Position numbers and translations under genes: made by a program. This document shows, one piece after another, positions 1-2,682 of a stretch of 64,000 nucleotides of DNA; position 1 is the stretch's first letter, and each line of letters starts with the position of its first letter. Below the pieces are notes generated by a model that ran no database searches, was not told the origin of the DNA, and saw nothing but the letters and a program-made list of their open reading frames with translations. The stretch is from Janibacter massiliensis (GTDB lineage Bacteria; Actinomycetota; Actinomycetes; Actinomycetales; Dermatophilaceae): contig NZ_LT985196.1 in assembly GCF_900289115.1 (NCBI RefSeq), positions 124,001-188,000 of the forward strand. Direction: 5' to 3'.

Positions 1-504
1 GATCCGCAGCAGCGGGTTCGAGGGGGTCTCGAGCCAGACGACCTTCGGGGCCTGCTCGGCACCCAGCGCGGCGGCGACGGCCTCCTCGTCGGTGAAGTCG
101 ACGCTGATGACGGTGAAGTGCTCCTTCGCGCCGAGCGAGTCGAAGAGGCGCCACGTGCCGCCGTAGCAGTCGTGCGGGAGCAGGACGGTGCCCCCGGGCG
201 ACAGGAGGGCGTGCACGGCGATGGTGATCGCGCCCAGGCCCGTCGCGGCGACGACGCCGCCGGCCCCACCCTCGAGGTCGGCGAGCGCGTCGCCGAGCAG
301 GTCCCGGGTCGGGTTGCCGCTGCGGGTGTAGTCGTACTTCCGGGGTTCGGCGAAGTCGGCGAACGTGAAGTTGCTCGACAGGTGCAGCGGCGGCACGACC
401 GCGCCGAACTGCGTGTCGGACTCCAGCCCCGAGCGGACGCCGCGGGTCATGCCCGAGCCGCGGGTCGCGTCAGTGGTGGTGGGGTTCGTCTCGCTCGTGG
501 TCAT
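1..504 (-). CDS. metB: Cystathionine gamma-synthase / trans-sulfuration PLP enzyme, partial (3' end outside window)
   Basis: The first 168 codons, from an ATG at 504, read into the window edge. The protein belongs to the Cys/Met-metabolism PLP enzymes, which join an activated homoserine with cysteine (or a related thiol) on the way to methionine. Visible family motifs are YTRSGNPT at residues 59-66, the TGLGAI segment near 88-93, DCYGGTWR at 112-119 and LETPSNP near 157. The PLP-binding lysine lies beyond the window. A SAM-I riboswitch sits directly upstream on the same strand, which supports a methionine-pathway role. Which homoserine ester is used cannot be told, and a cystathionine gamma-lyase or O-acetylhomoserine sulfhydrylase role is possible but fits less well. 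Confidence 0.85.
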   Translation of the reverse strand, partial: MTTSETNPTTTDATRGSGMTRGVRSGLESDTQFGAVVPPLHLSSNFTFADFAEPRKYDYTRSGNPTRDLLGDALADLEGGAGGVVAATGLGAITIAVHALLSPGGTVLLPHDCYGGTWRLFDSLGAKEHFTVISVDFTDEEAVAAALGAEQAPKVVWLETPSNPLLRI

Positions 505-585
505 CGGGTGCACCTTTCCGTGGTTCGAGGGGCGCCTCGACCTGCGGGTACCGGGTGCATCGCGACGACCGCGGGGGCCGCTCGC

Positions 586-705
586 GATCCATCTGCCGGC
601 CGGTCCGAGGACCACCGCAGGACTTGGCACCGTGACCGCGGATCGCTCCGCGGGTGGTTGCCCCGGCGTCGTCGGGCCTGTCCCTCAGCCGGTCGTGATG
701 GATGT
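586..705 (-). promoter_or_regulatory. SAM-I (S-box) riboswitch controlling metB
   Basis: Read on the minus strand, the leader has the S-box order. A P1 strand ATCCATC (about 697-703) pairs with GATGGAT (about 587-593). Inside are the conserved core pieces GAGGGACAGGCCCGACGA, CCGGGGCAACC and GGTGCCAAGTCC. These match the SAM-I aptamer consensus (GAGGGA, GGCCC, CGGCAACC, GGTGC..A.TCC). The aptamer ends about 82 nt before the metB ATG. In Gram-positive bacteria this RNA turns off methionine genes when S-adenosylmethionine is abundant. Whether control acts on termination or translation is not clear from the sequence. Confidence 0.9.
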
Positions 706-778
706 CGGGAGCACCGTACAACCGGCACCACCCGCAGGCGAAACCCGGGTCCGGCACCCGGACACACCAGCAGACGGC

Positions 779-813
779 GAGGCCCCGCGCGCCGTGGTGG
801 CGTGCGGGGCCTC
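779..813 (-). terminator. Hairpin terminator after the stress-protein gene
   Basis: GAGGCCCCGC at 779-788 is complementary to GCGGGGCCTC at 804-813, a 10-bp GC stem with a 15-nt loop. It lies 17 bp past the stop of the gene at 830-1402. There is no U-tract, as is common in high-GC actinobacteria. Confidence 0.65.
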
Positions 814-829
814 GTCACGGGTCGGCCGG

Positions 830-1402
830 TCAGACCCGCGGCTGGCCCGGCCCCCCGGACTGCTGCGGCCGGGCGGCCTCCTGGGCGGCCCGGATCCTCT
901 CCTGCGCCGCCGCCCGAGGGTCGAGCTTCGCGAGCAGCTCCCGGCCCATCGCCGCGTGCTTGTGCTCGGTGAGCACCTCGTACCGGGTGGCGACGACCTG
1001 GCTGACCGACGTGAAGTCACGGCGGCCGCGGGTCACGGCATAGCCGATCGCCGCCCAGACGATGCCGAAGACCGCACCGGTGAGCACGGTCGACAGCAGG
1101 ATCGCGAGGATCGGGCCCTCGTCGAAGAGCGAGAGGATCACACCGATGAACAGACCGAGCCACATGCCCGACAGCGCGCCACCGGCGATGACGGAGCCCC
1201 ACGTCAGCCGGCCGGTGACCCGCTCGATCTGCTTGAGGTCGGTGCCGACGATCATCACGTCGGCGACGGGGAACTCGTGGTCGGCGAGGTGGTCCACCGC
1301 GCGCTGGGCGTCCTCGTAGGCGTCGAACACCCCGAGGCTCATGGGGTAGGCGAGGCGGAGACGGGAGGTCGGCAGGGACGCTGCGGTCGTCTGGGCGGTC
1401 AT
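830..1402 (-). CDS. General-stress-type integral membrane protein (YflT/GSP17M-like N-terminus)
   Basis: 190 aa. The N-terminal 60 residues (LGVFDAYEDAQRAVDHLADHEFPVADVMIVGTDL) match the small alpha/beta domain of general stress protein 17M. This domain is followed by two or three hydrophobic segments at about residues 68-90 and 95-125, then a charged C-terminal tail rich in Ala, Arg and Gln. The family is widespread in actinobacteria and has no firm biochemical role; a link to stress at the membrane is inferred from the domain. It stands alone between two terminators. Family assignment is good, function unknown. Confidence 0.7.
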   Translation of the reverse strand: MTAQTTAASLPTSRLRLAYPMSLGVFDAYEDAQRAVDHLADHEFPVADVMIVGTDLKQIERVTGRLTWGSVIAGGALSGMWLGLFIGVILSLFDEGPILAILLSTVLTGAVFGIVWAAIGYAVTRGRRDFTSVSQVVATRYEVLTEHKHAAMGRELLAKLDPRAAAQERIRAAQEAARPQQSGGPGQPRV

Positions 1403-1422
1403 GCCCCGATCCTCTCAGAGAA

Positions 1423-1460
1423 CGTCGGAACCCCGCACCGTTCGGTGCGGGGTTCCGACG
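1423..1460 (-). terminator. Strong hairpin terminator after acyl-CoA dehydrogenase
   Basis: A near-perfect inverted repeat (stem of about 17 bp, tiny loop near 1441) lies 23 bp past the stop codon of the acyl-CoA dehydrogenase gene and 21 bp before the start of the next gene on the same strand. Confidence 0.8.
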
Positions 1461-1482
1461 TCCGGGGCTCCGGCGTGCGGGC

Positions 1483-2682
1483 TCAGCCCTTGAGCTTGTA
1501 GTCCTTGAGCAGCGCCTTGCCGATGATCATCTTCTGGATCTCCGCCGTGCCCTCACCGATGAGGAGCATGGGCGCCTCACGGTAGAGCCGCTCGATCTCG
1601 TACTCCTTCGAGTACCCGTAACCACCGTGGATGCGGAAGCTCTGCTCGACGACGTCGGCGCAGTACTCGGCGGCGAGGTACTTCGCCATCCCGGCCTCGA
1701 GGTCGTTGCGCTCGCCGCGGTCCTTGAGCTTGGCGGCCTTGACCATCATCTGGTGCGCGGCCTCGACCTTCGTGCCCATGTCGGCGAGCCGGAAGAGGAT
1801 GCCCTGGTGCTCGGCGATCTTCTTGCCGAAGGTCTCGCGCTGCTGGGCGTAGGAGATGCCGAGCTCGAACGCACGACGGGCCAGGCCGCACGCGCGCGCG
1901 GCGACGTTGACGCGACCGACCTCGACGCCGTCCATCATCTGGTAGAAGCCCTTGCCCGGCTCGCCGCCGAGGATCTGGGCCGTCGTGGTCTTGTGGCCCT
2001 CGAGGACGAGCTCGGTCGTGTCGACGCCCTTGTAGCCCATCTTCGCGATCTTGCCCGGGACGGTGACGCCCTGCGCGGTCTCACCGAAGCCCGACTCCTT
2101 CTCGACGAGGAACGTCGTCATGTTCTGGTGCGGCCGCTCGCCCCCGAGGTCGGTCTTGACGAGGACGGCGACGAGGTTGGCGGAGCCACCGTTGGTCAGC
2201 CACATCTTCTGGCCGGTGATCGTCCACTCGTCGCCCTCGCCCTGGACGGCCTTGGTCCGGATGCCGGCAACGTCGGACCCCAGGCCCGGCTCGGACATCG
2301 AGAACGCGCCCCGGATCTCACCCGTGGCCATGCGGGGGAGGTAGCGCTGCTTCTGCTCGTCCGTGCCGTGCTTGAGGAGCATGTAGGCCACGATGAAGTG
2401 GGTGTTGATGATCCCGGAGACGCTCATCCAGCCGCGGGCGATCTCCTCGACGCACAGCGCGTAGGTGAGGAGCGACTCGCCGAGACCGCCGTACTCCTCG
2501 GGGATCATCAGGCCGAAGATCCCCATCTCCTTCATCGCCTCGACGATCTCGGTGGGGTACTCGTCCTTCGCCTCGAGCTCCTGGGCGACGGGAATGATCT
2601 GCTCCTCGACGAACTCCCGGACGAGCTTGATCAGCTCGGTCTGCTCCTCGGTGAGGCCGTCGGTCGTCTGCAGTCGGGACAT
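1483..2682 (-). CDS. Acyl-CoA dehydrogenase
   Basis: 399 aa, the normal length. The enzyme uses FAD to make an alpha,beta double bond in an acyl-CoA and passes electrons to ETF. The all-alpha N-terminal domain (residues 10-120) is followed by the flavin-contact segment SMSEPGLGSD near 130, the RETFGKKIAEHQ helix near 275-287, and the signature RIHGGYGYSKEYEIERLYREAPMLLIGEGTAEIQ. The Glu at about 377 is in the position of the catalytic base of short-chain enzymes. Substrate chain length cannot be read. Two CitE-like lyases lie 1.9 kb away on the same strand, so a role in branched-chain or dicarboxylic acyl-CoA breakdown is possible. They are separated from it by two cell-wall genes. Confidence 0.93.
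   Translation of the reverse strand: MSRLQTTDGLTEEQTELIKLVREFVEEQIIPVAQELEAKDEYPTEIVEAMKEMGIFGLMIPEEYGGLGESLLTYALCVEEIARGWMSVSGIINTHFIVAYMLLKHGTDEQKQRYLPRMATGEIRGAFSMSEPGLGSDVAGIRTKAVQGEGDEWTITGQKMWLTNGGSANLVAVLVKTDLGGERPHQNMTTFLVEKESGFGETAQGVTVPGKIAKMGYKGVDTTELVLEGHKTTTAQILGGEPGKGFYQMMDGVEVGRVNVAARACGLARRAFELGISYAQQRETFGKKIAEHQGILFRLADMGTKVEAAHQMMVKAAKLKDRGERNDLEAGMAKYLAAEYCADVVEQSFRIHGGYGYSKEYEIERLYREAPMLLIGEGTAEIQKMIIGKALLKDYKLKG

Follow-up and report, generated by a model that had tools for sequence, protein, structure and literature searches.

A SAM-I riboswitch before metB in Janibacter massiliensis, its predicted translational switch and its apparent kinship with riboswitches of another phylum

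The window analysed here is a 64,000-nucleotide stretch of Janibacter massiliensis DNA (contig NZ_LT985196.1, positions 124,001 to 188,000). Near its start the minus strand carries the 5' part of metB, preceded by a leader with a SAM-I (S-box) riboswitch aptamer. The full metB, read from the genome, encodes 403 amino acids, and the protein matches TIGR02080 (cystathionine gamma-synthase) with 557.8 bits over a cut-off of 504.55; its best three solved structures are all cystathionine gamma-synthases. The metB ATG is at 504..502, and 81 nt separate it from the end of the aptamer. The features of the locus are as follows.

713..718, minus strand: TACGGT, a -10-like box of the form TANNNT, 8 nt before the first base of the aptamer
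586..704, minus strand: SAM-I (S-box) aptamer, P1 to P4 with a long P3, by RF00162
677..680, minus strand: CAGG, the L2 strand of the pseudoknot, with 4/4 pairs to CCUG 621..618
615..621, minus strand: CCUGCGG, comprising the pseudoknot partner CCUG and the 5' strand of P4; target of a complementary leader strand
559..565, minus strand: UCGCGAU, pairing in the core-anti fold (below) with AUCGCGA 588..582, a stretch that shares bases with the 3' end of P1
554..570, minus strand: predicted 5' arm of the OFF stem, GGUCGUCG, a short irregular stretch and then UGCACC, from minimum-energy folds of both the leader and the aptamer-forced RNA
541..547, minus strand: CCGCAGG, candidate anti-aptamer strand, complement of CCUGCGG in the aptamer
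513..519, minus strand: GGAAAGG, Shine-Dalgarno-like by sequence, 8 nt before the ATG, a spacing as in relatives
499..514, minus strand: predicted 3' arm of the OFF stem in minimum-energy folds, containing the AUG and the final GG of the Shine-Dalgarno
1..504, minus strand: metB, cystathionine gamma-synthase (TIGR02080), 5' part, extending past the window start

The stretch 704..586 of the minus strand scores 67 bits with the RF00162 covariance model (SAM, S-box), whose gathering score is 44.4 (E = 2e-13; cmscan, Rfam release 15), with model positions 1-108 of 108 aligned. RF00162 is the best model of its clan at this place, and its site is the only one above gathering score in the Rfam scan of the 64-kb window; a permissive search of 400..900 (E up to 1, best per clan listed) found no second match. 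Searching the whole genome (2.45 Mb, completeness 99.51) found the site again at the same place, as the genome's single SAM-I match. Judged by these scores, the element in the metB leader is an ordinary, well-scoring SAM-I riboswitch. An earlier note on this DNA had placed a SAM-I riboswitch before metB at 586-705 and proposed a check with the covariance model; the match proves to be full-length and scores over the threshold, not under it, the gene is confirmed by its TIGR02080 score, and the coordinates were right to within one base, the strand, which that note had left out, being minus.

The anatomy of the aptamer has been compared across 115 sequences, of which 24 precede metB and 43 lie at other sites in the family (Dermatophilaceae), with 48 from outside it. 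The pseudoknot, formed by L2 with J3/4-P4, has 4/4 Watson-Crick pairs in 96 of the 115, taking the best of four registers. Its partners covary between subtypes, with six partner pairs found (CAGG/CCUG, CUGG/CCAG, ACGG/CCGU, GUGG/CCAC, UUGG/CCAA and CCGG/CCGG). For pair covariation and alignment 21 of the 24 metB aptamers were used, in which 7 of the 31 consensus pairs have two-sided changes with the pairing kept in some rows; these 7 all belong to P3 or P4, where several pairs also have broken cells; the P4 hairpin is present in the consensus fold, two of its pairs having two-sided changes. P1 and P2 are mostly invariant. By sequence, G19 A20 and G35 A36 are the same in all 21, and this tandem G-A of P2 may form a kink-turn. 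Both P1 and P2 had been described as GC-rich, which is true of P2 (all G-C) and not of P1, where 3/7 pairs are G-C.

Upstream of the aptamer, a TANNNT box occurs 5 to 11 nt before its first base in 24/24 metB loci, within the 22 nt inspected, as compared with 12/43 at the other SAM-I sites of the family and with a background of 0.011 per 22-nt window in the DNA farther upstream. Given this enrichment, transcription probably starts at about 706-705, the transcript thus beginning with P1; a strict sigma-70 scan found no promoter. Downstream, the lack of an obvious terminator reported earlier is borne out by a consensus scan for intrinsic terminators in 300..1500, both strands, which gives 0 sites where shuffles expect 0.3. 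Elsewhere in this region, a GC-rich hairpin at 779-813 with a 10-bp outer stem (GAGGCCCCGC/GCGGGGCCTC) lies between a YflT-domain stress gene (830-1402, minus strand; PF11181) and the riboswitch, and is perhaps the terminator of the stress gene although it lacks a T-run.

Folding of the leader alone leaves the start region (-18 to +3) 0.24 unpaired, as against 0.51 in shuffled leaders (p 0.016), and the AUG 0.00 unpaired against 0.45 (p 0.033). GGAAAGG is 0.41 unpaired, and the six-base Shine-Dalgarno pick of the window, AGGUGC, which overlaps GGAAAGG only in AGG, is 0.15 unpaired against 0.40 in shuffles (p 0.01). The start region is likewise more paired than shuffles in 24 family leaders (Wilcoxon p 9e-5) and 47 outside leaders (p 0.005), as is the six-base pick (family p 0.0012, outside p 0.0057), although, the leaders being related, these and the other group p-values exaggerate the significance; the AUG by itself is not significantly more paired in either set (p 0.06 and p 0.45). 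In the full-length RNA the Shine-Dalgarno is more open than in the leader alone in 32/47 outside leaders (p 0.001), and in the family in 13/24, which is not significant (p 0.25). These tests leave out locus L128 for want of a clear start codon; for 12 outside leaders the start codon was assigned manually, and that of several more (L104, L119, L123, L124, L143) is in doubt. Pairing of the start region beyond shuffles, together with the empty terminator scan, supports the translational control that the earlier note had proposed.

A strand of the leader that could compete with the aptamer is CCGCAGG, whose complementarity to CCUGCGG exceeds that of dinucleotide-shuffled sequences in the window leader (p 0.03); such a complement to the aptamer core reaches p < 0.05 in 11/24 family leaders and 8/47 outside leaders. 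Energies were computed with neither pseudoknot nor ligand: the unconstrained minimum is -101.7 kcal/mol, the fold in which the CCGCAGG helix is forced (core-anti) -98.5 and the fold in which the native aptamer is forced -97.2. The AUG is unpaired at 0.45 in the core-anti fold and at 0.00 in the aptamer-forced one, a large change, whereas GGAAAGG moves little, from 0.41 (aptamer-forced) to 0.53. In the unconstrained minimum the aptamer is non-native while the OFF stem is retained, and thus folding alone predicts no ON state. For the Xanthomonas riboswitch it has been reported that the Shine-Dalgarno is sequestered in vitro even without SAM (PMC7270179).

What has been computed for this leader comprises the aptamer, its gene, the lack of a terminator by scan, and start pairing and complementarities beyond those of shuffles. 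From these we infer that SAM is bound, in which direction the RNA switches and through which strands, in a model by which the riboswitch would lower translation of metB when S-adenosylmethionine is plentiful. Transcription would, most likely, begin immediately upstream of P1. Once SAM is bound, the aptamer would retain its own strands, and the leader stem would sequester the AUG together with the final Shine-Dalgarno bases (OFF). When SAM is lacking, a strand of the leader, for which CCGCAGG 547..541 is the best candidate, would pair with CCUGCGG of the aptamer, taking up bases of both the pseudoknot and P4; the OFF stem would then open and the ribosome could start (ON).

Translational control might also be exerted through a different strand, 571..558 (CGGUCGUCGCGAUG), which is the complement of the aptamer 5' strand CAUC-ACGACCG (P1 5' arm, J1/2 and P2). 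This is the strand brought forward by a three-way score, in which one leader strand is complementary both to the aptamer and to the start region: the window scores 19 against 13.8 (p 0.02), and its score arises from GGUCGU of this strand, which pairs either ACGACCG or CGAUGACC at the start codon, and not from CCGCAGG. Three-way scores are above shuffles in the family (p 0.001, 6/24 below 0.05) and outside it (p 1e-6, 10/47), one-sided. Many Xanthomonadales leaders seem alike in this respect (CUCGAUGG against CCAUCGAG), and a complement to the aptamer 5' strand is found at p < 0.05 in 18/47 outside-family leaders, as opposed to 0/24 in the family, with the window at 0.083. Folds with this helix forced, at -86.4 and -83.5 kcal/mol, are moreover >10 kcal/mol above the other states. 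We regard the model with the OFF stem, and with CCGCAGG as best candidate for the switching strand, as likely, short of firm, and switching by 571..558 as the less probable course; that GGAAAGG is only partly paired, and that the three-way score of the window comes from the other strand, lowers the first a little and raises the second.

A SAM-I riboswitch acting on transcription, through a Rho-dependent or non-canonical terminator and not through a block to translation, appears improbable. Several strong hairpins do lie downstream of the aptamer, and in Xanthomonas campestris, where the riboswitch SAM-I_Xcc precedes metA-metB-hom, a transcriptional fusion is lowered by ~24% with SAM; the translational fusion is, however, lowered by ~98% (both figures from PMC7270179), and in the window the empty scan of 300..1500 for an intrinsic terminator and the pairing of the start region both argue against it. 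That the aptamer has no regulatory role, being a relic or a match by chance, is scarcely credible, even though no experimental work is known for this genome, given its 67 bits, its covarying pseudoknot, its recurrence at this position before metB in 24 genomes with proteins of 53-72% identity to that of the window, and the TANNNT box in 24/24; chance was rejected on these grounds.

SAM-IV was also considered for the metB leader and rejected. As the window scans list only the best model of a clan, this exclusion rests on a whole-genome search with RF00634 (E up to 0.001), whose three matches are all elsewhere. One of these three SAM-IV riboswitches (G000:C1:2084339-2084448, 2149472-2149581 and 2159967-2160074; L076-L078) precedes a gene that reads as an ABC permease, for which the nearest NCBIfam model, TauC, gives 172.7 bits and so falls short of its cut-off of 342; the targets of the other two are MetX, homoserine O-acetyltransferase (PRK00175.1, 430.6 vs 331), and MetY, O-acetylhomoserine sulfhydrylase (PRK07812.1, 742.3 vs 703). 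With SAM-IV before metX and metY and SAM-I before metB, methionine synthesis in this genome therefore appears to be divided between the two classes, direct sulfhydrylation standing under SAM-IV and transsulfuration under SAM-I.

SAM-I, which the earlier note called best known in Firmicutes and less often discussed in actinobacteria, proves to be no rarity there in the sampled genomes. RF00162 is found at E up to 0.001 in 50/186 genomes of the family, 161/396 of the order and 199/396 of the phylum Actinomycetota, and over its cut-off in 50/186, 142/396 and 192/396, so the phylum is unsurprising for this riboswitch. The family holds 67 SAM-I sites, 66 of them over the cut-off, and by tblastn 24 of the 67 lie directly before a metB orthologue, the MetB proteins at such loci having 53-72% identity to that of the window; three further sites precede distant sulfhydrylase-like homologues (31% identity). 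This MetB is present in 30/186 family genomes at E up to 1e-130, and 23 of those 30 have SAM-I, the 24th metB site (G024) being one whose metB is cut off by the contig end. For the remaining seven, stretches of 0.7-1.15 kb, which include ~0.4-0.8 kb upstream of the MetB match, contained nothing that Rfam recognises at E up to 0.1, and replacement by another Rfam riboswitch was rejected on this result. In two family metB loci that lack SAM-I (L213, L214) a TTCGANATCGAA palindrome precedes the start and may be an operator that stands in for the riboswitch. Two other actinobacterial records carry an msiK RNA motif (RF01747; L116:224-280, L120:250-306) >1 kb upstream of a metB of the same type.

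Relatives of MetB were sought by a profile scan of named genomes, from which the best 80 of 588 were used; 41 of the 76 non-family entries among these 80 are Xanthomonadales (Lysobacterales) by title. RF00162 lies within 1.5 kb upstream of metB in 52 of the best 80 of 588 (19, 13, 11 and 9 per successive 20). Four of the 52 are family members already counted, leaving 48 outside loci, of which 47 are titled Pseudomonadota and one (L156) Eremiobacteraeota. Outside the family, among the best 80 of 588, the aptamer is usually 1.1-1.4 kb before metB, with one gene between; L081 and L123, unlike most, have it directly before metB.

Over a core of ~75 nt, the metB aptamers of the family share a mean identity of 0.821 (maximum 0.932) with the 48 outside aptamers, as compared with 0.694 (maximum 0.779) with the 43 other SAM-I aptamers of their own family, figures in which L056, L100 and L118 stand too low through a wrongly taken middle segment that also makes their rows in the complement test uninformative. 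For 24/24 metB aptamers the nearest aptamer beyond their own group is one from outside the family, with the outside set drawn from the best 80 of 588. The same result, again 24/24, is obtained on adding 48 further actinobacterial SAM-I controls, from a set of 50 in which L177 and L185 were skipped. The window's own nearest aptamer among the best 80 of 588 belongs to L104, a MAG titled Sphingomonas; the MetB tree places L104 and L156 alike with Xanthomonadales. Judged by core identity, SAM-I in this family comprises distinct subtypes, and the metB subtype is nearest to the met-operon SAM-I of Xanthomonadales and kin.

The 43 other family sites, likewise members of RF00162, mostly have a short P3, and in 29/43 the pseudoknot is CUGG/CCAG, unlike the CAGG/CCUG of the metB subtype; their identified targets are flavin reductase-like or OsmC-like, with ABC transporter and sulfhydrylase genes assigned by eye. 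Flavin reductase-like genes, a less expected target for SAM-I, stand by eye behind short-P3 aptamers at about 20/43 of these sites, with PF01613 found in the 3 tested (L041, L030, L042). Five sites form a third subtype with pseudoknot ACGG/CCGU (L008 at 323-438, L010, L018, L025, L039), and that of L008 precedes an OsmC-like gene (PF02566).

The MetB of the window is of the same type as that of Xanthomonadales and kin. In the MetB tree, 29 of 30 actinobacterial rows cluster (SH-aLRT 99) next to 71 rows that are mostly gammaproteobacterial; five of these 29 lack SAM-I. The 30th, from an Acidimicrobiales MAG (L127), has a MetB that sits with Rhodanobacteraceae, through contamination or another transfer. 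A constraint that unites the 24 SAM-I-bearing actinobacterial rows is not rejected (p-AU 0.789), and the constrained tree has a log-likelihood 17.7 above that of the free quick tree, so that a likelier tree exists than this quick one, which has SH-aLRT support only, midpoint rooting and long branches, and from which the direction of transfer is unreadable. The tree requires at least 7 changes between presence and absence of the riboswitch.

The shared aptamer subtype and gene type, and the patchy presence of the riboswitch, agree with a joint transfer of both, and suggest that riboswitch and gene passed together between phyla, in either direction, with promoter and expression platform rebuilt; convergence of both aptamer and MetB is less likely. 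Horizontal transfer has been proposed by Barrick and Breaker for scattered gammaproteobacterial SAM-I (PMC2258182). We lean slightly towards a fuller account, in which SAM-I and metB would have travelled as a single module between Gammaproteobacteria and Actinomycetota, with the aptamer core preserved at up to 93% identity, with promoter, gene order and platform rebuilt, different switching strands in each phylum, and an unrelated SAM-IV alongside. What is new, on the sequences compared, is a metB SAM-I subtype whose nearest relatives, together with those of its gene, lie in another phylum; a search of titles and the beginnings of abstracts, in which few subscription journals were covered, brought up no treatment of a metB SAM-I in the family or of its proteobacterial kinship. 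If confirmed, the two lineages would provide a natural test of one conserved aptamer on different expression platforms.

The closest characterised system is SAM-I_Xcc, compared here by its published description (PMC7270179), according to which its action is mainly on translation. It has in common with the window a SAM-I riboswitch before a cystathionine gamma-synthase gene or operon, the lack of an intrinsic terminator, and pairing of anti-Shine-Dalgarno and anti-AUG type; it differs in preceding metA and the whole operon, where the riboswitch of the window precedes metB alone. SAM-I_Xcc is also described there as responding to uncharged initiator tRNA, and base pairing, whether to the 3' CCA or to the anticodon, does not account for the recognition. 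A locus labelled Xanthomonas (L105) bears the metB aptamer subtype, with a leader that, by eye, is unlike that of the window. The RF00162 members of Firmicutes, such as that of Bacillus subtilis yitJ, belong to the same aptamer family; those that have been characterised use Rho-independent terminators (PMC7270179), of which the scan found none in the window, and translation attenuation has been predicted as the commoner mode outside Firmicutes (PMC2258182). The riboswitch class, the target gene and the mode of regulation are thus already known from other systems, and what is less usual in this one is its company and its descent.
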